Shown here: positions 206 through 16,128 of the stretch, piece by piece
Layout: the number at the start of each line of letters is the position of its first letter
How positions within the stretch are numbered: the stretch's first letter is position 1
Assembly: GCF_000498575.2 (NCBI RefSeq)
Contig: NZ_AWSQ01000001.1
Coordinates: 1,159,914 to 1,223,913, forward strand
Direction: 5' to 3'
DNA: 64,000 bases
Origin: Pseudomonas taeanensis MS-3
GTDB lineage: Bacteria > Pseudomonadota > Gammaproteobacteria > Pseudomonadales > Pseudomonadaceae
Program-made: the position numbers and the translations under genes
Notes under the pieces: model-generated
Seen by the model: only the letters and a program-made list of their open reading frames with translations
What the model was told of the DNA's origin: nothing
The model's database searches: none

Positions 206-1795
206 TTACAGGCCCTGCTCAGGCGACGCTTTAGGCTTGCCAGGGCGCAAACTATGGGCTGACTGGTTAGCGCTCCCTGATGCTGTTTTTTTGACCTGAC
301 AGTCCTTTTTGGCGGGAAAGCTCGCCTGACGCGCCGTGGCGGGACGTACTTGGATGATGCAGCCGCGCTTGTAGGTGGCGTCGAGCAACAGGCTCTGCAG
401 CGCCAGGATATCCCCGCCGAGGATGCTCTGCGTCAGCGGCCCGAGCTGGTAGTCATTGTTGCCCAGCGTCAGCTGTTGTACGCCCTCGGTGCGAATCAGG
501 ACCTGGCCGATATTGCCCAGGGTATTGCCGATCACCACTAGTTCGCTCGGTTGCTCGCCAGGGTTCAGCACGCTGATCCCGTAGTTGGCGCTGGCGTGGA
601 TCTGGTTGCCGACGATATACGCCCGTTGCAGGTTGTCGGCATAGACGCCACTGGCGTCGCTGTTGCCGATCAGGTTGCCACTGACCAGCAGCGCGCTATC
701 GGCAGTATCCGAGGCGACATTGCGCAGCAGGATGCCATTGCCCCTGGAGGCGCCGATCTGGTTGTCCGCGAGCACCAGGTTACCGCTTTGATCGTTGATT
801 TCGATCCCGGCTTTTTCGGTCTGCAGCAGTGTGTTGTGCTCGACCACGCCGACACTCGAACCACGGATACGGATGCCACTCTGGTTGCGCACCTGCTGGA
901 TACGGTTATGGCTGAGGTGCAGGCGCGCGTCCTGCAGATCGATGGCGTACTGCTGCAGGTTGGTGAAGGTGCTGTGTTCGATTCGGGCCTGGACGGCCTG
1001 CAGTTCGACGCTGGAGAGCGCGTCGATCCGACTGTCGCTGATCAGTACCCGTGCCGGCTCTTGCTGCAGCGGCTGGCCGCTACTGCGCGCGCTGCTCATG
1101 CCTCGGGACAGGTGTGCGTTGTAACCGAGCTTGCGCAGGGTCGAACCTCTGATTTCAGTGGTACTGCCGGCCCAGGCCATGATGAATGGGCGGAAGGGTC
1201 GGTCGGTGACCGTGGGGCTGTCATCGTTCCAGCTCTCCAGCGTGGCATTCACCAGGCTGAGCGTGCCCAGGTTGATCAGCGCAGTCCCGCTGGGGGTGAG
1301 CAGGTACAGGTGACTGTCCTTGACCAGCAAGGCGCCGTCGGCCGCGACCATCAGCGGATAACTGAGCAGGTAACCATCTTTGTAGCGCTTGAGAATGCGT
1401 GGGTCGGCGAGGCGCTGGTGCAGTTGCTCGAGGGTGATCTGGCCTTTGCCGATGACCACGGCTTGCGGGTGGCTCGACTGATAGCCGGCAATCGCCCGAA
1501 ACAGGCCATTGTTGACGAAGGGCTCGAACGGCCAACTGCCCGCTTGGGCGGAGAACATGGTTTGCAACGCGACAGTCGCGGTTGCAGAGGTGGTGCCTGT
1601 GCTCCAGTTTGGCAGGCTGCTGCGGGCCTGCTGGCGAATCCGCTCGGCTTGCACCTGCTGCTCGGCCTCGCCGCTCCAGTGCCAATCGGCGTCATTGACG
1701 GGCTGCGCGTAGCTGCTGGATATGGTTAGCAGGCTCAAGATCAAGCCCGCGGCACTGGCCGCCAGATGACGGAGGGTCTGGTGAGTCTGAGGCAT
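206..1795 (-). CDS. algG: AlgG-like mannuronan C5-epimerase homologue with altered active site
   Basis: 529 aa, last gene of the operon, abutting the algL stop. Residues 1-30 form a signal peptide ending SSSYA. An N-terminal region (about 100-200) is followed by a right-handed beta-helix repeat region (about 205-430). The block PFRPFIMAWAGS (about 200-211) corresponds to FRPFLLSWGG in characterised AlgG proteins, so homology is clear. In known AlgG the epimerase active site is a DPHD motif on the helix, with His acting as base. Here the aligned stretch reads YAIDLQD (283-289): His is Gln and Pro is Leu. The later KHGIIVSRE segment is replaced by QSGIRIRGS. The C-terminal 35 residues are basic and Ser/Lys-rich. 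AlgG also has a structural role protecting polymer in the periplasm, which could persist. Inference: epimerase activity is lost or changed. Confidence 0.82.
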   Translation of the reverse strand: MPQTHQTLRHLAASAAGLILSLLTISSSYAQPVNDADWHWSGEAEQQVQAERIRQQARSSLPNWSTGTTSATATVALQTMFSAQAGSWPFEPFVNNGLFRAIAGYQSSHPQAVVIGKGQITLEQLHQRLADPRILKRYKDGYLLSYPLMVAADGALLVKDSHLYLLTPSGTALINLGTLSLVNATLESWNDDSPTVTDRPFRPFIMAWAGSTTEIRGSTLRKLGYNAHLSRGMSSARSSGQPLQQEPARVLISDSRIDALSSVELQAVQARIEHSTFTNLQQYAIDLQDARLHLSHNRIQQVRNQSGIRIRGSSVGVVEHNTLLQTEKAGIEINDQSGNLVLADNQIGASRGNGILLRNVASDTADSALLVSGNLIGNSDASGVYADNLQRAYIVGNQIHASANYGISVLNPGEQPSELVVIGNTLGNIGQVLIRTEGVQQLTLGNNDYQLGPLTQSILGGDILALQSLLLDATYKRGCIIQVRPATARQASFPAKKDCQVKKTASGSANQSAHSLRPGKPKASPEQGL

Positions 1796-2926
1796 CTACG
1801 GATTTTCCCTGGATGATTGGAAGTGGCTGTAGAGCGGTTTGAGATGGCCGCCAATCTGACCGTAGTTATCTACTTCGCCGTCTTGTACTGCGTAGAGCTT
1901 GCGCGCCCACACATGCTCGGGATAGCGGTTGAGGTAGGGGATCAGCCAGCTCATCTTGTGTGCACCGACCGCCTTCTGGGTCTTGCCCTGCAGTTCTTCC
2001 AGGGTTTGCGGCTGCAGCACGGCGCGGGCGGTGAAATTGGCCAGGAGTTGCAGCTTGCGGCTTTCCTCTGCGGACAGCGGGCGACCATTGAACTGCGCGG
2101 CCTCCGCCAGCAACACCAGGGGCACCATGGCGTAATTGCTGTAGTCGGCGGCCAGCTGGCTGCGGGCCACCTCGAGAGGCAGGTAGGCGTAATCGCCGCT
2201 AGTCGACAGAGTCATCTGCCTGAAGGCACGTCTCAGGTTGCTATCGGCCCAGGCCATGAAGTCATCGCGGCCGAGCAGCATGCCGGTTGCTGCAACGGCC
2301 CAGCCAGCCCAGTAATCATGGTTGTTGAAAAACTTGAAACCGGGCTGGTGGCGGGGCTGGTACTCGGCAATCACCTGTTCGCCCAGCTGTTCCAGCCAGC
2401 TTCTCTGTACGGGTGAAGGTTGCCAGGCGCGATTGCTCAGTGCCTGGGTCTTCAGCAGGGTCGAAGAAATCGCGGCCAATGCCCATTTACGCGAGGCAAC
2501 GCCGGTGTTGCTGGCGTCTTTGCTGTGCAGGGCACCGGCCGTGGCCCACGCCGTGAGCCACTGATCGAGGCACGCCAGCGCGAGGCGGGCCTGCTGCGGT
2601 TTTTTTGCGCGTTGGAATTGGTTTGAAGCACTGACCAGGCCACCGATGTAGCGCTTGATCTGTTTGCCGATCTGGGTGGTTTCCTTGGACTGCTTGGCCC
2701 GCAAGGTCGACTTGCTGCTATCGCTCTGGTCATATTTGCTTTGCAGCTGCAGGTGCCCGGTATAGGCCGCTGGCGCTTTCTTCGGGCAGCTGAGCTGCCG
2801 ATAGTCAGCGGCTTGGCCAACCAGCTTATTTGGCTGCGCCGCCCAGATCGACGTGGTCGCATGGGCCGGCAGTTGTGCGAGGCCGATCAGCAGCAGGGCA
2901 GCCAGAGGTTTGGCGCTCAACGACAT
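1796..2926 (-). CDS. algL: Alginate lyase AlgL
   Basis: 376 aa periplasmic mannuronate lyase that degrades misdirected polymer during export. The start is the ATG at 2926, which gives a signal peptide (about 1-23, ending PAHA) and overlaps the end of algX by 10 bases; a longer open frame upstream has no coding support. Catalytic features of PL5 lyases are visible: Lys64 in SKYDQSD, the NNHDYWAGW block (201-209, Asn/His), Arg255 and the tyrosines of DYSNYA (262, 265). The length is close to the 367 aa of P. aeruginosa AlgL. It sits between algX and algG, as X-L are adjacent in the classical operon, but G has moved behind it. Confidence 0.93.
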   Translation of the reverse strand: MSLSAKPLAALLLIGLAQLPAHATTSIWAAQPNKLVGQAADYRQLSCPKKAPAAYTGHLQLQSKYDQSDSSKSTLRAKQSKETTQIGKQIKRYIGGLVSASNQFQRAKKPQQARLALACLDQWLTAWATAGALHSKDASNTGVASRKWALAAISSTLLKTQALSNRAWQPSPVQRSWLEQLGEQVIAEYQPRHQPGFKFFNNHDYWAGWAVAATGMLLGRDDFMAWADSNLRRAFRQMTLSTSGDYAYLPLEVARSQLAADYSNYAMVPLVLLAEAAQFNGRPLSAEESRKLQLLANFTARAVLQPQTLEELQGKTQKAVGAHKMSWLIPYLNRYPEHVWARKLYAVQDGEVDNYGQIGGHLKPLYSHFQSSRENP

Positions 2927-4314
2927 ACCTTGACCTCGAGTGTCGTGGCGCTTTCCAGAGGGGCGGTGGGCTCCATGAATACAGAGAGCAGGTTGGCGTC
3001 CTTGAATTCGGCCGCCGGGCTCAACTCCAGGTAGTACTGACCACCGCTGACGGCAGCCTGGCGGCGCATCCACACCTTGTCACGGGCGCCATTGTCGTAA
3101 TAGACGATCAGGTAAAAGTCCTTGACGCTCGTGTCGCCGATCTTGATATCGAGAAAGCCGTTGAGGTTGCTGAGACTCTGCCGGTCCTGACCGGCGTTGC
3201 TGAACAGTTCGATGCGCTCGTTGACCTGCAGCGAGGGGCGTTTGAGCGAGTGGCTCGCCAACGTCTCGGCCTTGGCGCATCCGCCGTTGATCGCCGGGAT
3301 CAACTGTCGGTACAGGTAGGGGCTGTCGAGGCTGTAGCTGGCGGGCAGTTCCCACACCAGCATCTTCGGCGGGGCGTCGGGGTTGTAGCTCGGCGAGAGC
3401 AGGTATTCGAGCAAGGCACCGTCCTGGCCGCCGCCGGGCAGGGCAAAGTTGAGGATGTCGACGCCCAGGTATTCCTTGAGATAACCGTCGAAGTTGTACT
3501 GGCGGGTTTCGTCTTCGCGGGCGGCGGAGTTACTGGTGCCGACCAGAATGACTTCGGGGTCGGCGTCCTCTTCGAACAAGGCGCTGGCGTCGTCCGAGTC
3601 CGGGATGGTGCGGTAATTTTTGACGAACTGATAACCGAAGGTGTTGTTGCAGATCCGCGCGAGCGCCATGTCGAGGATGCCGTTCTTCGGAATGATCACG
3701 CCAGGCTCGGTGCGATAGGCCTTGTGACTCAGTTGCGCATAGAACGGCTGTCGTTTGACTTCGTCAGCCAACACGCGGGCGGTAATCTGGGCGCCGCTGG
3801 GGGTCCAGTGCGAGTCGCGGCGGAAGAAGTAGTCGGCTTGCGGTGGTTGTTCCACCACTTGCAGCATGTCCGGCACGATCGCCCCGCCGGCGCGTAATTG
3901 CCGCTGCAGCTTGGCCAGGCTGGCGCGGGCCTTGGCATAGTCGAAGCCGTAAGCCTGTGCGGGGCGCACCTTGTCCCGGTGCATCAGGCCGCGGGTCGGC
4001 TGCACGGCGATGGCTACGTGCGTGCCCTTGGCCGCGAAGGTCGCCATCAGCCGGGCAAACTCCGGTTGCATGGCTGGGGGAATGCCGAACTCATTGACCA
4101 GGTCCACCGAGGAACGGAACAGCCAGCGGTCGTCGCCGGGTGCGATGAAGCGCATCAGCTTCATGCCGCGGCCCTGGTACTGGTCAGGGTCGGTGACCGC
4201 CGAACAGATCAGACATTCCAGGCCATCACAGCCCTCAGGCGTTTCATCGGCAACGCTCGACAAGCTGCACAGGGCGAGGGTCATGGCCAGAATTTGCTGC
4301 AGTGTTTTCTTCAT
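2917..4314 (-). CDS. algX: Alginate O-acetyltransferase AlgX
   Basis: 465 aa from the ATG at 4314, which gives a clean signal peptide (MKKTLQQILAMTLALCSLSS then VADE). An in-frame ATG at 4380, closer to algF, would add 22 residues in front of that peptide; neither start has a strong ribosome-binding site. SGNH-type acetyltransferase domain with the triad visible: Asp167 and His169 in RRDSHW, nucleophile Ser261 in VGTSNS. The C-terminal part aligns with the carbohydrate-binding module of AlgX. AlgX makes the final acetyl transfer to mannuronate in the periplasm and forms part of the export scaffold with AlgK. Here it follows algF rather than algG. Confidence 0.92.
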   Translation of the reverse strand: MKKTLQQILAMTLALCSLSSVADETPEGCDGLECLICSAVTDPDQYQGRGMKLMRFIAPGDDRWLFRSSVDLVNEFGIPPAMQPEFARLMATFAAKGTHVAIAVQPTRGLMHRDKVRPAQAYGFDYAKARASLAKLQRQLRAGGAIVPDMLQVVEQPPQADYFFRRDSHWTPSGAQITARVLADEVKRQPFYAQLSHKAYRTEPGVIIPKNGILDMALARICNNTFGYQFVKNYRTIPDSDDASALFEEDADPEVILVGTSNSAAREDETRQYNFDGYLKEYLGVDILNFALPGGGQDGALLEYLLSPSYNPDAPPKMLVWELPASYSLDSPYLYRQLIPAINGGCAKAETLASHSLKRPSLQVNERIELFSNAGQDRQSLSNLNGFLDIKIGDTSVKDFYLIVYYDNGARDKVWMRRQAAVSGGQYYLELSPAAEFKDANLLSVFMEPTAPLESATTLEVKVCR

Positions 4315-4384
4315 GTTCGCGGGCTTATTATCCTGTTGGGCCAGGCGCCGGCTTAGCAGCCGAGGCAGAAAACCGCTCATCCGT

Positions 4385-5026
4385 TCACTCGGTCGGGTCG
4401 ATCGCGTTGGCTTGGCTGATGGTGCGGTAGCCAGCGCCTTGCGGCAGCAGCACGTAACTGTAGGAGCGACCCTTCTTCAAGAACATCTCGTCGAAGGTCG
4501 CGACACTCTGGTCACCGACATAGGCGGCGAAGGCGATCTTGAACTCGTTGACCATGCGTCCGCCGGTCTGCGCCTTGTCGATCGCTTCGACCACCACGTG
4601 CTTGCCGTCCACGGTCTTCAATGCCGCACTACTGTCGGTCAGGTTGTAGAACGCCAGTTGGGCTTTTTTCGGTTCGTTGACATAGCTGTCCTTGAGCAGC
4701 GTCAACTGGCCGTCGGCATAGAGCAGGGTAGTGGCGGTATTGGCTTGCAGGTCGGGCTCCAGGGACTTGCCGTCGATCAGCAGCCTGGTCTTGCCGGGCG
4801 GGGTGAAACGATAGCTGCCGAGCTGGGCGGGGCCGACTTTCTGCGGGGTCTTCTTGCCGCTGAGACTGACCTCGACCACCGCGTCGCTCAGGTTGAGCAC
4901 GCGGATGAACGCCGAGTCGGCTGGCGCGACCGCATCGTAGAGGTCGGCGGCGTTCTCCTTGGCTTGGCTGCTGGTCGCGGCCAGTAAGGTCAGTAGGCAC
5001 ATCAGCCGGCGGGCAAAGGTCTGCAT
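4385..5026 (-). CDS. algF: Alginate O-acetylation protein AlgF
   Basis: 213 aa with a signal peptide (about 1-22, ending SSQA). Periplasmic adaptor of the AlgI/J/F/X acetylation pathway. No catalytic motif is known for the family; recognition rests on the overall AlgF-like sequence (DLYDAVAPADSAFIRVLNLS near the N terminus, EMFLKKGRSYSYVLLP near the end) and its position 17 bases after algJ. The I-J-F order is the same as in the classical operon, so these three moved as one block. Confidence 0.92.
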   Translation of the reverse strand: MQTFARRLMCLLTLLAATSSQAKENAADLYDAVAPADSAFIRVLNLSDAVVEVSLSGKKTPQKVGPAQLGSYRFTPPGKTRLLIDGKSLEPDLQANTATTLLYADGQLTLLKDSYVNEPKKAQLAFYNLTDSSAALKTVDGKHVVVEAIDKAQTGGRMVNEFKIAFAAYVGDQSVATFDEMFLKKGRSYSYVLLPQGAGYRTISQANAIDPTE

Positions 5027-5043
5027 GGGGAAGCTCCTGGTGG

Positions 5044-6153
5044 CTAGAAATGTTGTGGTTGAGCGGCTTGCCAGCTCTTTTCGCCGGCCTGCTGAGCCAG
5101 CACGGTGCGAACCGGGAACTCCCAGATCACGGTATGGATGCTGTCGCTGTCGAACAGGTCGCTGGCGGTAAATTCGCTCATCGCCTGGAACGGCCCGCGG
5201 GCCTCTACGGCAACGCTGACCAGGTCGTTCTGCAGGGCTTCCTTGAGAAAGCCGAGGAAGTTCCAGTCTTCGATCTTGGTGTAGCTGGAACCCACCACGG
5301 CAATCGACTGGCCGCTATCGCCGAACAGGTTGTCTTCGCTGACGGTCTGCGCCGCGTTGAGCGTCTCGTAGAGCGGGATAATCGCCGGACGGTAAGGCCG
5401 GGGCGCCAGGCGCTGGTCGAACAGGATGTAGTTCATCAAGTCGCCCTTGAGGCTTTTCTCGTCCGCTATATGGGAGGCATAGGGGATGGTGCCCCGCAGT
5501 TGCGGGTTCTGCCGCGCTACTTCCTGAGCGGCCAGATTGGCGCCGAAGGGACTCCAGTGGGTGTCGGTTTTGAGAAACAGCCGTGAGCTGTCGCGCTGGT
5601 TGAGGAAGGCGTCGCGCAGGCTGGTGACCTGGATCTGCCGGTGCTGCAGGGCTTGGCTGAAGCGTTGGTAGAGGTCGATCGCCTGCGGGTTGGGGTGCTG
5701 CCGGGCATGTTGCGCATAGATATCCAGCTTCATCGGCACCGGCAGCATGATCAGGCGTTTGCCGTGCTGCTGTAGCTGGGCCTGCACCTTGGCGATCTGC
5801 TCGACCTGTTGCTGCAGATTGGCGCTCAGGTCATTGGGCACCAGATACTCCTGGCTGGTGTAGAGCCAGCCGTCGTTGCCCAGCACCACGCCTTGCGCGC
5901 CTTCGTTGAACAGCAGGTATTGGGCGCTGGCCCAGAGCTTGACCGCCGGGTCGCGGATGAACAGCTGCTTGTCGTAGCTCTGCTCGAATTTGCGCAGCAG
6001 CTTGCCGTCGAGGAACAGCTCAAGGGACTGCGCCTGGGTCTGCGACTTGGAGAAGTCATAAACCGAAGGCAGCGAGTAGATGAACATCACCACTAGCAGC
6101 GCGCAGAAGGCGATGCCGTTTATCTTGCTCGCCGAACTCATCACCGGAAACAT
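5044..6153 (-). CDS. algJ: Alginate O-acetyltransferase AlgJ
   Basis: 369 aa, anchored in the inner membrane by one N-terminal hydrophobic segment (about 12-30) with the enzyme domain in the periplasm. SGNH-like catalytic residues are visible: Asp197 and His199 in KTDTHW and Ser290 in VVGSSYT. It takes acetyl groups delivered across the membrane by AlgI and passes them toward AlgX. The ATG at 6153 is preceded by GAGGTG at good spacing and lies 9 bases after the algI stop, consistent with translational coupling. Confidence 0.93.
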   Translation of the reverse strand: MFPVMSSASKINGIAFCALLVVMFIYSLPSVYDFSKSQTQAQSLELFLDGKLLRKFEQSYDKQLFIRDPAVKLWASAQYLLFNEGAQGVVLGNDGWLYTSQEYLVPNDLSANLQQQVEQIAKVQAQLQQHGKRLIMLPVPMKLDIYAQHARQHPNPQAIDLYQRFSQALQHRQIQVTSLRDAFLNQRDSSRLFLKTDTHWSPFGANLAAQEVARQNPQLRGTIPYASHIADEKSLKGDLMNYILFDQRLAPRPYRPAIIPLYETLNAAQTVSEDNLFGDSGQSIAVVGSSYTKIEDWNFLGFLKEALQNDLVSVAVEARGPFQAMSEFTASDLFDSDSIHTVIWEFPVRTVLAQQAGEKSWQAAQPQHF

Positions 6154-6162
6154 GGCGGCACC

Positions 6163-7590
6163 TCAGAACTGGAAGTACAAGAAGGGAGAGAAGGAATTGG
6201 CCGCCAGGCGGCTGATGGCCAGCGCGAAGCCCGCCCACAGCAGCAGGGCACTGAAGCCGCCGACGTGCTGCATGAAGTACTGTTCCTTGTTGCCGGCGTA
6301 GTAACGGCTGTTGATGGCGCCGGCGATGACCAGCCAGGCGACAGCCACCAGGGCGAAGGAAATGGTCATCGCCGACGTGCCGAACAGGTAGAGATCGAGG
6401 GTGCCGATGCCGTTCATGCCGAGCATCGCCGCATAGATACCCAGGCTGTGTTGAAGGTCGCCGGTGAAGAACAGCGGCATGCACGACAGAATCAGCAGCA
6501 CGGTGCGCAGGTTGCGCAGTGGTCGGTAGGGCGTGGTGATCTTGGTCGCCAGGCCAAGCTTGCGTTCGATGACCATGGCCACGCCGAAGAACAAGCCCCA
6601 GAGGATGAAGGCGAAGCTGGCGCCATGCCAGAGGCCGGACAGCAGCATGGTGTAGACCAGCGCCACCAGCATGCCGGCCATGCGTTTGCGCACCATGGGC
6701 ATATAGACATAGTCGCGCAGGAAATCCGCCAGGGTCATGTGCCAGCGCTGCCAGAACTCGGTGACGCTCTGCGCCAGGTAGGGCTGGTTGAAGTTTTCGG
6801 CGAAGCGAAAGCCCATCATCATGCCCAGGCCGATGGCCATGTCGCTGTAGCCGGAGAAGTCGAAGTACAGCTGCAGCGTCGAAATGAACAGGCCGAACCA
6901 GGCGTCGACCAGTTGCGGTGACCCTTCGCCGACGAACAACGTGTTCATCGGCGCCAGGGAGTCGGCGATCAGCACTTTCTTGATGAAGCCGAGCATGAAC
7001 CGGCAGGCCCCCAGGGAGAACAGCTCCAGGGAATGCGTACGCTGCTTGAGCTGCTTGTCGATCAGGCTGTAACGCAGGATCGGTCCGGCGATCAGTTGCG
7101 GAAACAGGGCAATGTAGGCCGCAAAGTCGACGAAACGGGTAGTCGGTTCGGCATTGCGCCGATAAATGTCGACGATGTAGCTCAGCGCCTGGAAGACGAA
7201 GAAGGAAATTCCCAGCGGCAGGATGATGTGTTCCAGGGTGAAGGTATCGATGCCCAGCGGCTGCAATGCCGCGGCGATCACTTCGACTCCGAAGTTGGCG
7301 TACTTGAAGTAACCCAGGGTCGACAGGTTGCCGACCACGCCTACACACAGCAGGCGGAAGGCCATGGTCTTGTCGCCGACATCCATGCGCGCCTTGATCC
7401 TGATGCCGAACCAATAGTTCCAGTACGAGATGGCGACGAACAGCAGGAGAAAGTCCGGGCGCCACCAGGCGTAGAACAGGTAGCTGCCGAGCACTATCAC
7501 GTAGGACCGCCACTGGTCTTTGACTGCGTAATAACTGAGCAGGAAGACCGGCAGGAACAGGAACAGGAAGATGTTCGAGGTGAAGACCAT
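6163..7590 (-). CDS. algI: MBOAT-family alginate acetyl donor transporter AlgI
   Basis: 475 aa polytopic inner-membrane protein of the membrane-bound O-acyltransferase family. The MBOAT signature is clear: FEFW-type segment TEFWQRWHMTL (about 277-287) and the essential His322 in GLWHGASF, at the same position as the His322 reported for P. aeruginosa AlgI. It moves acetyl groups from a cytoplasmic donor to AlgJ. It starts 13 bases after algE, a junction that does not exist in the classical operon, where algG follows algE. Confidence 0.95.
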   Translation of the reverse strand: MVFTSNIFLFLFLPVFLLSYYAVKDQWRSYVIVLGSYLFYAWWRPDFLLLFVAISYWNYWFGIRIKARMDVGDKTMAFRLLCVGVVGNLSTLGYFKYANFGVEVIAAALQPLGIDTFTLEHIILPLGISFFVFQALSYIVDIYRRNAEPTTRFVDFAAYIALFPQLIAGPILRYSLIDKQLKQRTHSLELFSLGACRFMLGFIKKVLIADSLAPMNTLFVGEGSPQLVDAWFGLFISTLQLYFDFSGYSDMAIGLGMMMGFRFAENFNQPYLAQSVTEFWQRWHMTLADFLRDYVYMPMVRKRMAGMLVALVYTMLLSGLWHGASFAFILWGLFFGVAMVIERKLGLATKITTPYRPLRNLRTVLLILSCMPLFFTGDLQHSLGIYAAMLGMNGIGTLDLYLFGTSAMTISFALVAVAWLVIAGAINSRYYAGNKEQYFMQHVGGFSALLLWAGFALAISRLAANSFSPFLYFQF

Positions 7591-7603
7591 GGGGTTTCGC
7601 CTG

Positions 7604-9028
7604 TCAGTAATGCATCACGATACCCAGCGTGAGCTGGTAGTCATCGCCACTGGCGACCGCATCACCAGCGCGGAAGTAGCTGGCGCTGAGCAAGGTATTC
7701 AGGTCGAGATGCTTGCCCTGGTGAGCGATGGGAAACATCTTCCAGTAGTAATTCACGTCGAGCACCTGGCCCACCGAGCTGCTGCCGTTGTGGCTGCCGT
7801 TGGCAATATTCGCCTGGCGCGTGCGGCTCTGCTCGCGATCGACGCGTAGCGGCAGGTCGCCCGTGTCGTCGCGCAAGTAGAGATCGCTGAGGCGAAAGTC
7901 CAGGGAGCTGCGCGGGGTCGGCTGGGTCTCCAGGGTGACTCCGTAGTACTTCAGGTTGCGCACATTGACGTTGATGAACGAGCTGACCAGGCGGGTGCTG
8001 TAGCGCTCCAGCTCGACCACTCGATCGGACTGGATGCGGTTCAGGTAGAAACCGTCATTGGCGTCGTCCGGCTTATCGGTGATACCGCCGCGCAGGGCCA
8101 GACGCGGGGTCCAGGGCAAGTCGTTGAAGCGCTTGCCGACTTCGCCGAGTACCGCCCAGCCACGGCTATGGCCCTCGTCGCGAACGCTATTGCTGTCGAT
8201 GCTTTCGACTGTGCCGTCGAGTGTCGCCAGCTCCAGGTGGTAGTCGCTCAGCGGCCGCAGGTCGAGGTTCTGGCCGTCGAAGAACAGCCCGGCGCGCAGG
8301 CCCGTGAAGTCCTGGCGGTCGGCGGGATTCTGATCCGAGTGATCGTTTTCGTAGAGCATGCGTACGCCGACACTATTGTGCGGGTTCCAGCGCCAGGCGT
8401 ATTCGCCCATGGCGTAGAAGATGTCCTCGTCGGTGTCGTCGAGGTCGTTGACGTCGGTGTTGTAGTAATAGAATTTCTGGCCCATCGCCAGAAAACCGCT
8501 GGAGAAGCTGTCCTGGTAGTTGAAACGCACGGATTCAAAGGTGTCGTCCCACCAGATGCCGTAGCGGTCGAAGAAACTTTGTCGGCCCAGGGTCACCGAG
8601 TAGCGGGGGTCGTCCCACAATAGGTTGCGGCGTACATAGAGTTCGCGCAGCTCGGAATAGAAGTACTCCGGTCGTTCACGCTCGGGACCCGATTGCGGGT
8701 TGTTTTCCTGCAGCGCGGTAGAGGCCTGGCTGGTGTCATAGTTGATCCAGGCCCGGCCGAATACCTGCCATTGAGCCCAGCGCTTTTCCGGCGAGTACCA
8801 GTGAAACGAGGGTTCATAGCGGTAGCTCTGGAAGCTCTCGCGGCGGTTGCCGATCGTCGAGTCCTGAGGGCCGTAGCCGGTTTGCAGGGTCAGCTTGTGG
8901 AAGACCTCGGAGGTGATTACCTCGTCATCGAAGGCCCGCGTAAGCGCGGGTTCGTCTGCAGCCCAGGTCGATGAGGTCAGCAGTGCGAGCAGGGCAGCGC
9001 TGAACCTGAGCGCATTAAAAGTGTTCAT
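7604..9028 (-). CDS. algE: Outer-membrane alginate export porin AlgE
   Basis: 474 aa. The ATG at 9028 overlaps the algK stop (ATGA) and gives a signal peptide (about 1-23, ending STWA); the frame stays open upstream inside algK but that is not coding for AlgE. The mature part has the alternating aromatic/polar pattern of a large beta-barrel with many short strands, such as SVTLGRQSFFDRYGIWWDD, and ends in a strand TLGIVMHY. Length is close to the 490 aa, 18-stranded AlgE of P. aeruginosa. It forms the anion-selective pore through which the polymer leaves the cell, partnered by AlgK. Confidence 0.9.
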   Translation of the reverse strand: MNTFNALRFSAALLALLTSSTWAADEPALTRAFDDEVITSEVFHKLTLQTGYGPQDSTIGNRRESFQSYRYEPSFHWYSPEKRWAQWQVFGRAWINYDTSQASTALQENNPQSGPERERPEYFYSELRELYVRRNLLWDDPRYSVTLGRQSFFDRYGIWWDDTFESVRFNYQDSFSSGFLAMGQKFYYYNTDVNDLDDTDEDIFYAMGEYAWRWNPHNSVGVRMLYENDHSDQNPADRQDFTGLRAGLFFDGQNLDLRPLSDYHLELATLDGTVESIDSNSVRDEGHSRGWAVLGEVGKRFNDLPWTPRLALRGGITDKPDDANDGFYLNRIQSDRVVELERYSTRLVSSFINVNVRNLKYYGVTLETQPTPRSSLDFRLSDLYLRDDTGDLPLRVDREQSRTRQANIANGSHNGSSSVGQVLDVNYYWKMFPIAHQGKHLDLNTLLSASYFRAGDAVASGDDYQLTLGIVMHY

Positions 9029-10488
9029 TGATACACGTCCTTGAGCAGTTTGGCCTGGGCGAGCAGCGCTTGCTCGATGTCGCGCTTGGGCATGCGCCTC
9101 TCCAGTTCCTTGAGCAGGTTGTGGGCGCGGGAGTCGCCGTACTCCACCGCGACCCTGGCATAGGTGTAGGCCTTTACCGCGTCGTAACAGATGGCGCGCG
9201 CGCTGGAGTAAACCGAAGCCATGCGGTAATACGCCGTCGATGAACCGCCTGCGGCCATTTCCTGGTAGATCGACAGCGCTTTCTGCTGGTCGGGCTCGTC
9301 CAGGCCGCCATGGCTGTATAGATCGCCAAGCAGCATGCGCGCGTCGCGGTAGTTGGCGGCGATCAGTTCCTCGATCAGCGCCTGGGCCTTGAACGGATCG
9401 AGGGTCGGCCAACTGGTCACCAGGTGCAGGGAGACGCGCAGGGCTTTGGCACGCAATGGCTGGCTCTGCCCGATGCGCTCGATCAGCGCGGCGGTGTCGC
9501 TGGCACTGTGCTCGGTGGGCGAGGAGGTCATGAAGTTGACCTTGGACACCATCGCCGGTACCCAGCCGCGTTCGACCGCGTTGTCCAGCCAGATCAGGGC
9601 GTCGCCGCGCAGCGTCTTGGCTTCTGCTTCGACCGTGCTCTTGACCTGTTCGATGGCTAGCTTTTGTGTGTCCTGCTCGGCTGGCGGTAGCCGATCCAGT
9701 GCGGCTTTAGTCGGCTCGACCGGGTAGCGCAGGCCCACACTGCGCTCCGCGCTGATGCTGTCGAGCTGCGTGCCGATGCGGTGCACGATTTCGACCGGGA
9801 TGTTGTCGAGACGTGCCACCAGGGTCTTGGCAAAGGCGGCGAACAGGGGATCCTGCTGTTCGCCGAGCACGGCGTAGTAGCGATCGACTGCCCTGACATC
9901 CGTCATCATTGCCCGTTCATACCAGGTTCTGGCTTGATCGATCTGGCCGAGCCGCTCGGCCAGAATCGCCCGGTAGAGGTCGCTGCTGCAGTCCACCAGG
10001 CAGGACCTGTCGTATAGCTCGATCAGTGACTGAGTCGCTTGCGGGGTGAAGAACTCGGGGTAGGCGACGAAGACTTCCAGGCTGGTGTTGAGGTTTTGCA
10101 CATCACGGGTTTGCGCAAATCGCTGCAAGGCAGCCCGAAAGAAATCGCTATTTTCCAGGCGTAGACGTGGATTGCGATCCATCAGCCTGGCCATGGAGGC
10201 GAGCGCCACAATTTCGCCACGTCCATCGGCAAACGCGTTCTTGTAGAAGATTACCGCCTCGCGTGTTTGCGCCGGGTCTGTCGCCAATACGTTGGCCAGC
10301 AGGTGCTGGGATGCCAGGTCACCCTTTTCCGCCAGCAGGCGCAGGTCGCCCTCTACCGAAGCAGAGGGATCCTTGAATAGCGCATAGCGGATTTGCTGCA
10401 GACTTTGTCCGGCAATGGCTGATCCGCTGGCACTTGCAGCGAGCAGCACGGCGATTAGCCCGGCGGCATAAGGCGGTAAATGTTTCAT
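9025..10488 (-). CDS. algK: AlgK-like periplasmic TPR/Sel1 scaffold protein
   Basis: 487 aa of helical TPR/Sel1-like repeats, clearest at the C-terminal end (DARMLLGDLYSHGG, STAYYRMASVYSSA, AYTYARVAVEYGDS). AlgK localises AlgE and bridges to AlgX and Alg44. In P. aeruginosa AlgK is an outer-membrane lipoprotein with a lipobox cysteine. Here the N terminus is a signal peptide (about 1-26, GSAIA then GQS) with no cysteine near the cleavage site, so a soluble periplasmic form is predicted. Similarity to classical AlgK is low apart from the C-terminal repeats; identity rests on the repeats and the position between alg44 and algE. Confidence 0.82.
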   Translation of the reverse strand: MKHLPPYAAGLIAVLLAASASGSAIAGQSLQQIRYALFKDPSASVEGDLRLLAEKGDLASQHLLANVLATDPAQTREAVIFYKNAFADGRGEIVALASMARLMDRNPRLRLENSDFFRAALQRFAQTRDVQNLNTSLEVFVAYPEFFTPQATQSLIELYDRSCLVDCSSDLYRAILAERLGQIDQARTWYERAMMTDVRAVDRYYAVLGEQQDPLFAAFAKTLVARLDNIPVEIVHRIGTQLDSISAERSVGLRYPVEPTKAALDRLPPAEQDTQKLAIEQVKSTVEAEAKTLRGDALIWLDNAVERGWVPAMVSKVNFMTSSPTEHSASDTAALIERIGQSQPLRAKALRVSLHLVTSWPTLDPFKAQALIEELIAANYRDARMLLGDLYSHGGLDEPDQQKALSIYQEMAAGGSSTAYYRMASVYSSARAICYDAVKAYTYARVAVEYGDSRAHNLLKELERRMPKRDIEQALLAQAKLLKDVYQ

Positions 10489-10498
10489 CGATGCGCCT

Positions 10499-11644
10499 TT
10501 AGAACTGAGCGATCAGCGGCAGGCCGAGGAACAGTTCCACGGAGACCGGTTTCTGGTACGCCTCACGCGGCAAGGCGCGATCTGGCTTGATGCTCAGCAC
10601 CAGGGTCTGGTTCAGCTCGTCCACTGCACTGGCCATGACTGTGCCGCCGACGGGCTCGTCGATGCCGAAGATCTGCATCTGCACCGAGCTGACCCGGGAG
10701 AGCTTGCTCATCTGCTCGAATGGCACCGTGGCCTTGATAAACAGGTCCTCGTCGCGCGGCAGCAGGTGTACCAGTGGTTGGTACTTGTAGGCGTAGCCAT
10801 CGAGCGTCTTGGCGGGGAAGAACACATCGCAATCGCAAGGGCTGGCGATCACCGTCTCGATCAGGGCGCGGCCCATCAGCAGCTGCATGTCGCTCTGCGA
10901 CAGGTTGGCCAGCGCCTGGATATCCGATGGCGTGGTGAAGGTGGCGGCCAGTTGGCTGGAGACGCTGGCCACCGGTTCACCCACCTTGACCTGGGCCTGG
11001 CCTGGTTGCAGCAGGTACTTCACATAGCCGTTATCCGGCATGCTGACCACATAGGCATTGGCACTGACGATGGCTTGGCTGGCCGGGATGCGGAAGAACA
11101 ACAGGTAGCTCTTGTAGAGAACCAGGCTCAAGGCTGCCAGACCCACTGCGAGGAACAGCAGGGTGCCCAGCGCGGCCTTCAGGCGCTCGCCCGGGGTGCG
11201 CGCGCTGGCGTGCTTGGTCTTGCGCTCCTTGATGTAGTTCTCACGCTGCATCACGTTGAACAGGCCGTTGATGTCGGCGATCTCGCCGGACATGTAGGCC
11301 GCGATGATATAGCGCAGGATGTCGCGCTTCTGGCTATCCAGTTCGACGAACTCGGCGCCGACCTCCCGGCCGCGTTGCGAGACGATCTTCACCTTGGCGT
11401 CGATGTTCAGGTCGATCTTGCTCAGCTTGAGCCGGATCGAGGCGCTGAACAGGCCGCCGAGCTTCAGCGGCTGGTCATACAGCAGACCCATTCCGCCGAG
11501 GGAGATGTCCTGGATATCGCATTCGAGGCCGTTCAGGCCATGGCCACTGAGGATGACCTTGGCCGGTATTTTGGTGCGGACGAACTGACGCTCGTCGATG
11601 GCCTCGTGGACAACTTTTGCCGCTAAGACAGAGGTGCTACTCAT
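10499..11644 (-). CDS. alg44: Alginate co-polymerase Alg44 with PilZ domain
   Basis: 381 aa. The N-terminal cytoplasmic PilZ domain (about 15-115) binds c-di-GMP: Arg19 and Arg23 in RQFVR and the DISLGG motif (46-51) are present. One membrane span follows (about 155-180), then a periplasmic membrane-fusion-like domain. The SPCDC cysteine pair known to form a disulphide in P. aeruginosa Alg44 is conserved. The C-terminal end is a little shorter than the 389 aa homologue. Alg44 switches on the Alg8 synthase when c-di-GMP is bound, so polymerisation here should also be c-di-GMP controlled. Confidence 0.94.
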   Translation of the reverse strand: MSSTSVLAAKVVHEAIDERQFVRTKIPAKVILSGHGLNGLECDIQDISLGGMGLLYDQPLKLGGLFSASIRLKLSKIDLNIDAKVKIVSQRGREVGAEFVELDSQKRDILRYIIAAYMSGEIADINGLFNVMQRENYIKERKTKHASARTPGERLKAALGTLLFLAVGLAALSLVLYKSYLLFFRIPASQAIVSANAYVVSMPDNGYVKYLLQPGQAQVKVGEPVASVSSQLAATFTTPSDIQALANLSQSDMQLLMGRALIETVIASPCDCDVFFPAKTLDGYAYKYQPLVHLLPRDEDLFIKATVPFEQMSKLSRVSSVQMQIFGIDEPVGGTVMASAVDELNQTLVLSIKPDRALPREAYQKPVSVELFLGLPLIAQF

Positions 11645-11662
11645 AGCATTCGCGCCTTTACT

Positions 11663-13195
11663 TTATGGTTGCGTGAGATCTAGCAGGACCGAAATGACCC
11701 CGAAGAAAATGGCAATGGAGGACAGCAGCATCGCCTTCGACGTCCATCGATTAAGGGCTGCATCGAAACTGACGCTGCCGTTGCTGAGCGTGGTTTTTTG
11801 CCGGGTCCAACTTTGCAGATCCATATGGAACATGGTGTAAACCTTCATCACCGAGCCGACGATCTGGTTGTAATAAAGAACGAAGGGGTAGATCGGGTCG
11901 ACCGGATGCCGAGTGAAGAAAAACAGCAAAGTCACCAGCGTGCGCGATAGCAGGACCCAGAACAGATACAGCAGCAGGTATTGCATGCCGAACAGCAGAC
12001 CGGCCACCACCGAGGCGCTCAAGCCCATCAGGCAGGTCCACATGGAGACACGCTGGTCATACAGCACGTACATGGTGAACAGCCCCAGGCGATCGAGTCC
12101 CAGCAATTTGGTGGCGCGGAAGTTCTGCCGCAGCGAGTTGCCATACCAGCGGTACATCAACTGACGGGTCGCGCGCAGGAAGCTGCTGTCGGGTGGATGC
12201 TCCACCGTCAGGGTGTGGCTGTCGGGCACGTAAAAGGTGTCCCAGCCGGCGCGCATCAAGCTGAGCCAAGAGGATTTGTCGTCGCCGGTGAGGAACTGGA
12301 AACGCCCCAGGCGCCAATGATCGAGGAAGTCGGCCTCGACGTCTCTAATGAACGCGGGATTGGTCATCACGCTGGCGCGGAAGAACGACAGGCGTCCGGT
12401 GAGGGTCAGCACACGCTGGGACAGGGCCATCGAGCACATGTTGATGTGCCGTTGGACGAAGCGCATGGTGTGCCACTCCTTCATCATCTTGCTGCCCTCC
12501 ACCTCGCAGAACTCGTTGGTGGTGATGCCGCCGACGTTGGGTAGGTAGGCGAACATGCTCACGGCGCGCTCGACGCAGCCGGGCAGCATCATGGTGTCGC
12601 CGTCGACCACCCCGACCACTGAGTTTTCCGGGGGCATCTGCCGCGATAAGGCGCGGAAGGCATGGGCCAGGCCGTCGCGTTTGCCGGTGCCGCGAGCGCG
12701 CACGATGATCAGCTTGATGTCGTCACGCTCGCGCACTTCCTTGCGCATGATGTCTTTGATGAAGTTTTCGTCACCCTTCTCGACGATCGACGCGATCACC
12801 GTGCAGGGCACCGGCAGACGCTGGACTTCCTGAAATACCGACTGATAGACCTTGATGGTGGTGTGGGTGGGAATACGGAAGCTGGTCACCACCATGAACA
12901 TATGTTCGGGCAATGCCGCCGTGCCCATGCGCTCGACGGCCTTGCGCATCCGCGGAAAGCGCCAGTGCAGGAAATACATGCCGCGCAGGTAGTGGATGAT
13001 GGCGTTGCCGTAGCGCCACATGCCCAGTGCCCCGACCAGAAAAATGAACTTCTGGTGCGAAGGGTCCAGGTAGTTCGGGTCGACCATCTCGGAGGCGAGG
13101 GCGATCAAGGCGAACAGGCAGGCCCAGCCACAGAGCTTGGTGAAGACCGCTGAAGTCTCCAGCCTCTCAAATGCACTGACAAAATACCTGAGCAT
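11663..13195 (-). CDS. alg8: Alginate polymerase Alg8 (GT2 glycosyltransferase)
   Basis: 510 aa. The start is the ATG at 13195, with GGAGGAAG about 10 bases upstream; the longer open frame upstream overlaps algA and is not supported. Inner-membrane family 2 glycosyltransferase that polymerises GDP-mannuronate and passes the chain across the membrane. Visible motifs: GTGKRDGLAHAFRA, VDGDT (catalytic aspartates), FLTGDDKSSW and RQLMYRWYGN (Q/RW-type acceptor motif), flanked by N-terminal (about 17-65) and C-terminal membrane spans. RHINMCSMALSQRVLTLTGR is nearly identical to the same stretch in P. aeruginosa Alg8, while the termini are more divergent. Confidence 0.95.
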   Translation of the reverse strand: MLRYFVSAFERLETSAVFTKLCGWACLFALIALASEMVDPNYLDPSHQKFIFLVGALGMWRYGNAIIHYLRGMYFLHWRFPRMRKAVERMGTAALPEHMFMVVTSFRIPTHTTIKVYQSVFQEVQRLPVPCTVIASIVEKGDENFIKDIMRKEVRERDDIKLIIVRARGTGKRDGLAHAFRALSRQMPPENSVVGVVDGDTMMLPGCVERAVSMFAYLPNVGGITTNEFCEVEGSKMMKEWHTMRFVQRHINMCSMALSQRVLTLTGRLSFFRASVMTNPAFIRDVEADFLDHWRLGRFQFLTGDDKSSWLSLMRAGWDTFYVPDSHTLTVEHPPDSSFLRATRQLMYRWYGNSLRQNFRATKLLGLDRLGLFTMYVLYDQRVSMWTCLMGLSASVVAGLLFGMQYLLLYLFWVLLSRTLVTLLFFFTRHPVDPIYPFVLYYNQIVGSVMKVYTMFHMDLQSWTRQKTTLSNGSVSFDAALNRWTSKAMLLSSIAIFFGVISVLLDLTQP

Positions 13196-13259
13196 GCGTT
13201 GTGCTTCCTCCGTTGAAGCCGTCCTCTGCCGCCGAGCGGCCCCGGATCGGGTCCTTGAA

Positions 13260-14687
13260 TTAGTTGAGAGTGGCGTCGGTGCGTCCGTAGACGTCGTCGA
13301 AGCGCTCGATATCGTCTTCACCCAGGTAGCTGCCGGACTGCACCTCGATGATTTCCAGAGGGATCTTTCCGGGGTTGGAGAGGCGGTGAACCGACCCAAT
13401 AGGGATGTAGGTCGACTGGTTTTCCGAGAGCAGGAACGATTGCTCATCACAGGTCACGCGTGCAGTGCCTGTGACCACGATCCAGTGCTCGGCACGGTGA
13501 TGGTGTTTCTGCAGAGACAGGCTGGCGCCGGGGTTGACTATGATCCGCTTGACCTGAAAGCGGTGACCACTGTCCACGGAGTCGTAGCTGCCCCAGGGGC
13601 GGTAGACCTGGCAGTGATTGTGGGCTTCAGGGCGACTCTGGGAGGTCAGGGTATTGACCAGTTGCTTGACCTCTTGCACGCGATCCTTGTGGGCAATCAT
13701 TACTGCGTCCTTGGTCTCGACCACGACCACGTCGTCCAGGCCGACCAGGGTGACCAGCTTGCTCTGGCTATGTACCAGGCAGTTGTGGCTGTCATGCAGG
13801 ACTACATCGCCGGAGTGACTGTTGCCATTGGCATCCTTGTCCTGGACGTCCCATAACGCCGACCAGGAGCCGACATCGTTCCAGCCGGCGGCGAGCGGCA
13901 CTACGCAGGCGCGTGCGGTCTTTTCCATCACTGCGTAGTCGATCGAGTTGTCCGGGCAGCAAGCGAAGCTGTTCGGGTCGATACGCACGTAGTCCAGGTC
14001 GACCTCGCTGCGCTTCAGCGCCAGCATGCAGGTGTCATAGATATCGGGGTCGTGGCGCTGCAGTTCTTCGAGGTAGCGGCTGCAGCGGAACAGAAACATA
14101 CCGCTGTTCCAGAAGTAGTCGCCTTGCTCGACGAATTCACTGGCAGTGGCATGGTCGGGCTTCTCGACGAAGCGCTCCACGGTCAGTACACCAGCCGGCA
14201 GTTCACTGTTGCTGCTTCCGGTCTTGATGTAGCCGTAGCCGGTTTCCGGGCGCTCGGCGGGCACGCCGAACAGCACCATCTCGCCTTGTTCGGCGGCCTG
14301 GCGTGCGACATCGAGGGCCGCATGGAAGACCTCGAGTTCCTCGATTACATGGTCTGCTGGCAGCACCAGTAACAGCTCGTCACGGCCCTCGGCGAGCAGG
14401 TGCATGGCGGCGATCGCCACCGCCGGCGCGGTGTTGCGCCCGAAGGGTTCGAGCAGGATCGTTTGCGCACTGCAGTCGATGGCGGCCAGCTGTTCACTGA
14501 CGATGAAGCGGTGCTCTTCGTTGCACACCACCATGGGTTTGCCCATGCCCTCGAGTGCCAGGCGCTGCAAAGTCTGCTGAAACATCGTTGCCGTGCCGGT
14601 AAGGGCAAGGAACTGCTTGGGGTAGAGCTTGCGCGAGAGCGGCCAGAGTCGGGAACCGCTGCCACCGGACAAAATCAAGGGAATCAT
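13260..14687 (-). CDS. algA: Bifunctional phosphomannose isomerase / GDP-mannose pyrophosphorylase AlgA
   Basis: 475 aa from the ATG at 14687, which has AAGGAG seven bases upstream. The N-terminal nucleotidyltransferase carries LILSGGSGSRLWPLSR and makes GDP-mannose from mannose-1-phosphate; the C-terminal cupin domain carries QKHHHRAEHWIVVTGTA (metal-binding histidines) and isomerises fructose-6-phosphate. AlgA supplies the substrate of AlgD. In the classical operon algA is the last gene; here it is second, directly after algD, which pairs the two precursor genes. The same family includes PslB/WbpW, but the operon context supports algA. Confidence 0.94.
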   Translation of the reverse strand: MIPLILSGGSGSRLWPLSRKLYPKQFLALTGTATMFQQTLQRLALEGMGKPMVVCNEEHRFIVSEQLAAIDCSAQTILLEPFGRNTAPAVAIAAMHLLAEGRDELLLVLPADHVIEELEVFHAALDVARQAAEQGEMVLFGVPAERPETGYGYIKTGSSNSELPAGVLTVERFVEKPDHATASEFVEQGDYFWNSGMFLFRCSRYLEELQRHDPDIYDTCMLALKRSEVDLDYVRIDPNSFACCPDNSIDYAVMEKTARACVVPLAAGWNDVGSWSALWDVQDKDANGNSHSGDVVLHDSHNCLVHSQSKLVTLVGLDDVVVVETKDAVMIAHKDRVQEVKQLVNTLTSQSRPEAHNHCQVYRPWGSYDSVDSGHRFQVKRIIVNPGASLSLQKHHHRAEHWIVVTGTARVTCDEQSFLLSENQSTYIPIGSVHRLSNPGKIPLEIIEVQSGSYLGEDDIERFDDVYGRTDATLN

Positions 14688-14758
14688 GCTGTCACTCCTT
14701 TGGGGCATGGATTTGCACCACGTTGGGCAGCGAAAATACAGGGCGTCTTGTTGTTAGC

Positions 14759-14787
14759 AGCGGTAGCCGGTCAGCCCGGATACCGCT
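14759..14787 (-). promoter_or_regulatory. Intercistronic hairpin between algD and algA
   Basis: Twelve-base arms at 14759-14770 and 14776-14787 with one mismatch and a 5-base loop, in the 130-base gap after algD. There is no T run on the operon strand, so it is unlikely to be a full terminator. It could protect the algD message from 3'-end decay or lower expression of downstream genes. This is inferred from the sequence only. Confidence 0.45.
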
Positions 14788-14817
14788 TGATTGTTGCCGG
14801 GGGCGAGTGTCTTTCGC

Positions 14818-16128
14818 TTACCAGCAGATACCTTCCTTGGAGCCGCTGGTGCTGTGTTGCATGAAGCCAACCAGGTCGACGATCTGTTTGTCGTCGCCGG
14901 CATTCATCAGCACGTCGGCGAAGCGTGAGTCGCCGTTGCCGAGAATCAGCACGTCGGAAGTCGCGACCACATCCTCGAGCTCGCCGCATAGCAGCGAGGA
15001 GACGTGGGGGATCTTCGATTCGATGTATTCCTTGTTGGCGCCGAAGACCCGCGCATATTCGACGTTGCTGTCGAATATGCGCAGCTCATAACCCTTGCCG
15101 ATCAGCATTTCTGCCAGCTCTACCAGCGGGCTCTCGCGCAGGTCGTCAGTGCCCGCCTTGAAACTCAGGCCCAGCAGGCCAACCTTGCGCTTGCCGTAGC
15201 TGGCGACCATATCGAAGGCGCGCTGCACCTGGACGCGATTGCTCGGCATGATCGAGCTCAGTAGCGGGTGTTCAACATCCATCTGGCCGGCGCGGTAGGT
15301 CAGTGCGCGAACATCTTTGGGCAGGCAGGAGCCGCCAAAGGCAAAGCCCGGGCGCAGGTAGTAGCGCGACAGGTTGAGCTTGTGGTCCTGACAGACCACG
15401 TCCATCACCTCACGGCCGTCGACGCCGCAGGCCTTGGCGATGTTGCCGATTTCGTTGGCAAAGCTGACTTTGGTGGCATGCCAGACGTTGCAGGTGTACT
15501 TGATCATCTCGGCGACTTCGATCGACTTGCGGATGATCGGTGCATCCAGTTCGCTGTACAGCTCCTGCAACAGGTCGCCCGATTGCACGTCCAGCTCGCC
15601 GATCACTGTCATGGCGGGGAAGTCGTAGTCGTTGATGGCAGTACTTTCGCGCAGGAACTCAGGGTTAGTCGCCACGCCAAAGTCGACGCCAGCGCGCTTA
15701 CCGGAGGCGGCTTCGATCAACGGGATCACCACGTTCTTCACGGTGCCCGGTAGTACGGTGCTGCGTACCACAATGGTATGGCGCTCGCTTTTATCGCGCA
15801 GTGCGGTGCCGATCTGCGTGCAGACCTGTTCCATGTAACCGAGGTCGAGATCGCCGTTACGCTTGCTGGGTGTGCCTACGGCAATGAACGAGAGCTCGCT
15901 CGCCAGCACGGCGGCGGCGACGTCGGTAGTGCCATGCAGGCGTCCGGCCTTTACGCCTGCGTCCAGCAGTTCGGCCAGACCAGGTTCGACGATAGGCGAT
16001 TTACCCTGATTGATCAGATCGATTTTGGGTTGCGAGACATCGACTCCGATGACTTCATGTCCGCGAGCAGACAGACAACCGGCACAGACGGCGCCCACAT
16101 AACCCAGACCAAAAATACTGATTCTCAT
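14818..16128 (-). CDS. algD: GDP-mannose 6-dehydrogenase AlgD
   Basis: 436 aa, exactly the length of P. aeruginosa AlgD. The start at 16128 (MRISIFGLGYVGAVCAG) has GAGAGGG about five bases upstream; the frame continues upstream but without coding support. The N-terminal Rossmann domain carries GLGYVG, the catalytic cysteine is in FGGSCLPKD (about residue 268), and the C-terminal end EGICW matches AlgD. It oxidises GDP-mannose twice to GDP-mannuronate, the committed step of alginate synthesis. It is the first gene of the operon, so control of the whole cluster should lie in the non-coding region upstream. Confidence 0.97.
   Translation of the reverse strand: MRISIFGLGYVGAVCAGCLSARGHEVIGVDVSQPKIDLINQGKSPIVEPGLAELLDAGVKAGRLHGTTDVAAAVLASELSFIAVGTPSKRNGDLDLGYMEQVCTQIGTALRDKSERHTIVVRSTVLPGTVKNVVIPLIEAASGKRAGVDFGVATNPEFLRESTAINDYDFPAMTVIGELDVQSGDLLQELYSELDAPIIRKSIEVAEMIKYTCNVWHATKVSFANEIGNIAKACGVDGREVMDVVCQDHKLNLSRYYLRPGFAFGGSCLPKDVRALTYRAGQMDVEHPLLSSIMPSNRVQVQRAFDMVASYGKRKVGLLGLSFKAGTDDLRESPLVELAEMLIGKGYELRIFDSNVEYARVFGANKEYIESKIPHVSSLLCGELEDVVATSDVLILGNGDSRFADVLMNAGDDKQIVDLVGFMQHSTSGSKEGICW

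Follow-up and report, generated by a model that had tools for sequence, protein, structure and literature searches.

Does an AlgG-family protein that has lost the catalytic motif of AlgG still act as an epimerase? The question is raised by a 64,000-nucleotide stretch of Pseudomonas taeanensis MS-3 DNA (contig NZ_AWSQ01000001.1, positions 1,159,914 to 1,223,913; hereafter the window), which carries on its minus strand, at 206..1795, an open reading frame of 529 amino acids; the plus strand of the same span contains stop codons. The gene lies in an Epm-type operon, and we call its product EpmG after epmG, which we take to be the label of the AlgG-family gene in such operons. A sequence-only reading of the window had proposed that this AlgG homologue has lost its DPHD motif and may be a non-catalytic scaffold, leaving the polymer as polymannuronate. 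At the level of sequence, our comparison establishes a distinct family with its own operon order, the loss of the AlgG catalytic pair, and a near-invariant set of D286, S306, R309, K328 and E332. On balance, we lean towards a protein that does not epimerise a polymannuronate chain but binds it and guides it across the periplasm, in a family where the AlgG arginine is absent and the histidine is not conserved.

The active-site region of EpmG

EpmG reads YAIDLQD at residues 283-289 (929..949, minus strand), where AlgG reads YGIDPHD. We fixed the register against AlgG in three ways, using a 65-sequence profile aligned to P. syringae AlgG (4NK6), HHalign (probability 99.7, E-value 1.5e-25) and MAFFT, all of which bear out the replacement of the histidine by glutamine. 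In the P. syringae numbering, whose offset was set by Tyr314 in PMC4444821 and by D317A in the title of 4NK8, the equivalent positions are Y283=Y314, D286=D317, Q288=H319, D289=D320, S306=H339 and G312=R345. Thus, EpmG has DLQD in place of DPHD with its catalytic histidine, and Gly312 in place of Arg345, the residue that neutralises the carboxylate. The latter position lies within NQSGIRIRGS (residues 304-313; 857..886, minus strand), which stands where AlgG has KKHGIIISRE; replacement of this segment, quoted as KHGIIVSRE in the sequence-only reading, is therefore real as well. Counter to this register, a single-sequence phmmer alignment set GIDPHD against residues ~329-336, part of a segment with a score of 4 bits. 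Beyond residue 313, the gap position differs between HHalign and hmmsearch, so that it is uncertain which AlgG residues correspond to K328 and E332, the ends of the motif KAGIE (residues 328-332; 800..814, minus strand).

Outside this region, the resemblance to AlgG that had been claimed for the fold and for the FRPF..W.G block holds. The block is present as FRPFIMAWAG (residues 201-210; 1166..1195, minus strand), and the AlgG-type beta-helix fold is predicted by a structure model. Foldseek TM-scores (template modelling scores) of this model against AlgG are middling (0.54-0.58 by query length) and a second aligner gave a strong match; its structural neighbours include beta-helix alginate epimerases and lyases. 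The score of EpmG with the AlgG model NF038177 is 60 bits, against a curated cut-off of 700. Unlike AlgG, the EpmG family also has a near-invariant block, SAQAGSWPFEPFV...GYQSSHP, at residues 82-110 (1466..1552, minus strand).

A paralogous family with its own conserved residues

Sampling one genome per species, we found 68 loci that encode an EpmG relative, including loci of Marinobacterium and Shewanella, which gives 69 sequences with that of the window. Within the genus, 149 genomes (that of the window included) yielded a match of at least 370 bits in 21 and only weaker matches of at most 70 bits, which look like canonical AlgG, in 117; the other 11 gave none. A class-wide search of 369 genomes, again with that of the window included, found no further full EpmG member, and eight other genomes gave matches of at most 54 bits.

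The loss of the catalytic pair extends across this family. At the position of Arg345, the 69 sequences carry Gly (66), Asp (2) or Asn (1) and never Arg, and at that of His319 they carry Arg (25), Gln (13), Gly (9), Ser (8), His (4) or others (10). By comparison, Y314, D317, P318, H319, D320, H339 and R345 are kept in 29/29 canonical AlgG sequences. Since His is found in only 4/69 and Arg in 0/69, as against both in all 29 AlgG, the motif change is not due to chance. Among the database matches listed (120 of 139), six have His at the 288 position, whereas no Arg occurs at the 312 position.

In exchange, D286, S306, R309 and K328 are kept in 69/69 sequences and E332 in 68/69 (the exception being locus L080), a set that supplies each turn of the beta-helix with at least one residue. 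Y283 is present in 66/69, with Gln in Shewanella, and the residue one turn ahead of D286, E264, is acidic in 67/69. The combination of D286, R309, K328 and E332 is still seen in Shewanella, where identity is as low as 34%. Of the 83 charged residues in the window protein, only six are this strongly conserved, and four of them fall within residues 286-332 (p 0.0023, for a stretch picked post hoc). D286, R309 and E332 are spaced by 23 residues, one per turn, and each is flanked by hydrophobic positions; they therefore likely form a column that points outward from the predicted helix.

The operon context is stable. The EpmG gene closes a run of twelve genes, D-A-8-44-K-E-I-J-F-X-L-G, that occupies 206-16128 on a single strand. 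The order 8-44-K-E-I-J-F-X-L-G occurs in the window and in 68/68 loci as far as the DNA extends, in a check that covered 10 kilobases per locus, with D and A mostly outside that span. All ten genes from 8 to G were seen in 19 loci, nine in 45, and fewer in four that are cut by contig ends. P. alkylphenolica xwS2 has D-8-44-K-E-I-J-F-X-L-G, and its last gene product is 52% identical to the window EpmG; together with the conserved order, this match identifies the window operon as one of the Epm kind.

The P. taeanensis MS-3 genome encodes two canonical AlgG proteins, on contigs C2 and C4 (965 and 808 bits with NF038177), which rules out that the organism is without AlgG. As each of these genes sits in an alginate operon, the genome has three alginate-type operons. 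EpmG is 25-27% identical to the two AlgG proteins, which are 63% identical to each other, and in a tree of 24 of the 69 Epm sequences and 11 AlgG, whose bootstrap is not fully settled, a branch with full support separates the two families. The ratio of nonsynonymous to synonymous substitution rates (dN/dS) of the EpmG gene is 0.16 against its nearest relative (L036) and 0.23 against L037, compared with 0.07-0.13 and 0.11-0.26 for five operon neighbours. Thus, the gene is constrained, although in the closer pair the neighbours are somewhat more so. Stop codons are listed for seven of the 21 strong genus matches; the frames cut from the 68 loci are all open.

Motif loss alone could look like decay. 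However, a pseudogene or a sequencing error is ruled out by the open frames in the window and in 68/68 loci, the dN/dS values, the same residues recurring in 69 sequences and the two intact AlgG genes elsewhere, and we give a decayed or mis-sequenced AlgG practically no credence. Judged from these sequences, EpmG is not a broken AlgG but a paralogue of long standing that has been maintained, its site rebuilt. What had been read as the loss of a motif by an AlgG homologue is therefore correct for the catalytic pair, and throughout the family, but is no defect in the organism's own AlgG, since EpmG belongs to a separate family under purifying selection.

Candidate functions and the genomes without AlgG

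The 68 loci are spread over 67 genomes, 66 of which were searched for AlgG (that of L048 was left out). Canonical AlgG above the cut-off was found in 54/66 and in none of the remaining 12/66 (L038, L039, L050, L055, L073, L077, L082, L085, L094, L095, L097/L098 and L102). As L050, L077 and L085 come from metagenome bins and the others from assemblies titled as drafts, any single absence may be a gap. Examples of Epm-only isolates are Marinobacterium lutimaris DSM 22012 and P. neustonica SSM26. Two of the 21 Epm genomes of the genus set (G001 and G117), each with a stated completeness of 100%, are likewise without AlgG and have only two ALGX-domain genes; their coordinates are identical to those of the L038 and L095 genomes, and they are thus not independent of the twelve. 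Searching 11 of the 12 genomes (that of L055 was left out) with PF12708 gave matches in those of L038 and L102 only, neither with a DPH motif, and by eye the former resembles a glycoside hydrolase family 28 (GH28) enzyme. PF13229, applied to two of them (G001 and G117), matched the Epm protein in both and one more protein in G117, the latter without DPH; epimerases that these models do not cover may still be present. One of the twelve, Pseudomonas mangrovi TC11, has two EpmG members on two contigs (L097 and L098), 44% and 38% identical to that of the window.

According to the review PMC4444821, the DPHD histidine of AlgG probably takes the proton and the arginine neutralises the carboxylate, and mutants without AlgG make degraded oligomers. 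Since EpmG is without the residues for the first of these roles, catalysis, the second, escorting the chain, is the likeliest one to have been kept. In such a mechanism, D286, S306, R309, K328 and E332 would line the groove of the AlgG-type fold and hold the uronate chain, and EpmG would accompany it on its way from Alg8/44 to export, protecting its passage by the AlgL lyase. The operon would then export O-acetylated polymannuronate, unless one of the two real AlgG proteins of the genome acts on it in trans. For the polymer of this operon, the scaffold and polymannuronate reading appears the likeliest; it does not imply that the organism makes no alginate with guluronate, as two canonical AlgG genes are present.

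Several observations weigh against this reading. A pull-down with P. aeruginosa AlgG did not recover AlgK (PMC9734138), which makes a physical AlgG-AlgK scaffold doubtful. His is back at position 288 (YAIDLH) in one group of four loci (L070, L080, L085 and L095), whose sequences are similar around the site and also without the Arg. A return of His where AlgG is missing is not supported, as AlgG is present in the L070 and L080 genomes but absent from the other two. The strictly kept Asp-Arg-Lys-Glu set exceeds the needs of a passive scaffold and would suit a catalytic centre. The idea of a non-catalytic scaffold thus holds as far as the lost AlgG pair is concerned, but the site is not merely eroded, and the conservation of D286, R309, K328 and E332 leaves room for other chemistry.

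Such chemistry could come from a rebuilt active site, the main alternative in our view but clearly less probable, in which the C5 proton would go to K328, the carboxylate would be bound by R309 and Y283 would be the donor, all three tuned by D286 and E332, for an epimerase, lyase or hydrolase acting by another route. The near-complete retention of these residues (Y283 in 66/69, although not in Shewanella) and the beta-helix epimerases and lyases among the structural neighbours are in favour of it, and Lys/Arg pairs catalyse in some beta-helix lyases. However, the residue order matches no beta-helix enzyme tested, and the roles were assigned by guesswork. With nearly the same likelihood, EpmG may be a new polymannuronate-processing enzyme, its groove refitted by exchanging His and Arg for Asp, Arg, Lys and Glu so as to catalyse another reaction on the nascent alginate-like chain in the periplasm. 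That EpmG is an ordinary mannuronan C5-epimerase, converting mannuronate to guluronate with other residues, seems improbable to us. The Tyr314 and Asp317 equivalents are kept (66/69 and 69/69), some relatives bear the name C5 epimerase in their source annotations, and EpmG could be the epimerase of the 12/66 Epm genomes without canonical AlgG; yet neither the proton-taking His nor the carboxylate-neutralising Arg is kept in the family, and the NF038177 score remains far from its cut-off (60 versus 700).

If EpmG is no epimerase, the twelve genomes without AlgG would belong to natural mannuronan producers, maybe the first, given that PMC4444821 states that no mannuronan-producing organism was known in nature. 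If instead the active site has been rebuilt, EpmG would modify an alginate-like polymer in the periplasm in a new way. Under either reading, doubt falls on labels such as 'poly(beta-D-mannuronate) C5 epimerase' that several relatives bear in their sources. We found no title or abstract in the open-licence literature that treats the EpmG active site, although the matter may already be published.

The Epm operon and related systems

Upstream of the EpmG gene, and on the same minus strand, lie genes for an AlgL-type lyase (1796..2926; PF05426 and NF001469), an AlgX-type acetyltransferase (2917..4314; PF16822 and PF16824), AlgF (4385..5026; PF11182), AlgJ (5044..6153; PF16822) and AlgI (6163..7590; PF03062), the last sharing 48.5% identity with its counterpart in the C2 alginate operon. 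They are followed by an AlgE-type export porin (7604..9028; PF13372), AlgK (9025..10488; NF038194, 49 bits against a cut-off of 700), Alg44 with a PilZ domain (10499..11644; PF07238) and the glycosyltransferase Alg8 (11663..13195; PF13641), which shares 50-55% identity with Alg8 from the other two alginate-type operons. An AlgA-type gene (13260..14687) and an AlgD-type GDP-mannose dehydrogenase gene (14818..16128) complete the run, with 70-72% and 76% identity to their counterparts in those operons. The starts of the AlgL, AlgX, AlgE, Alg8, AlgA and AlgD genes were chosen by eye. In AlgL and AlgX, the residues that we take to be catalytic align with identical ones.

Directly downstream of the EpmG gene, just left of the window, is a 226-amino-acid alginate lyase (PF08787, 193 bits; L106:9060-9740, minus strand, or C1:1158959-1159639), which may turn over the Epm polymer; relatives of it lie near the EpmG gene in 13/68 loci, on either strand. 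Locus L050 has a second AlgL-like match after its EpmG gene. The other two operons of the genome are located at C2:238001-257000 (L104) and C4:668001-687000 (L105). In the C4 operon, we found no match to algI, algJ or algF, and AlgX is the only protein of the ALGX-domain kind there; because of these missing matches, that operon would make non-acetylated alginate.

The Epm kind of operon is already known, and what is of interest here is the refitted site and the genomes without AlgG. An Epm alginate-like exopolysaccharide cluster was reportedly described by Lee et al. in 2014 (doi 10.1007/s00253-014-5529-6) in P. alkylphenolica strain KL28, where a mutant is said to show that biofilm aerial structures need it. 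The window operon shares the order D-8-44-K-E-I-J-F-X-L-G with this species (strain xwS2, not KL28, was compared), but has an additional algA-type gene between D and 8. With AlgG (P. syringae 4NK6; NF038177), EpmG has in common the predicted fold, the FRPF..W.G block, the equivalents of Tyr314 and Asp317, and an alginate-type operon. It differs in being without equivalents of His319, His339 and Arg345, in its own N-terminal block and invariant D-S-R-K-E set, and in its place at the end of the operon, whereas AlgG lies between algE and algX. AlgE-type epimerases and polysaccharide lyase family 6 (PL6) alginate lyases are right-handed beta-helix proteins that act on alginate, as EpmG would be.
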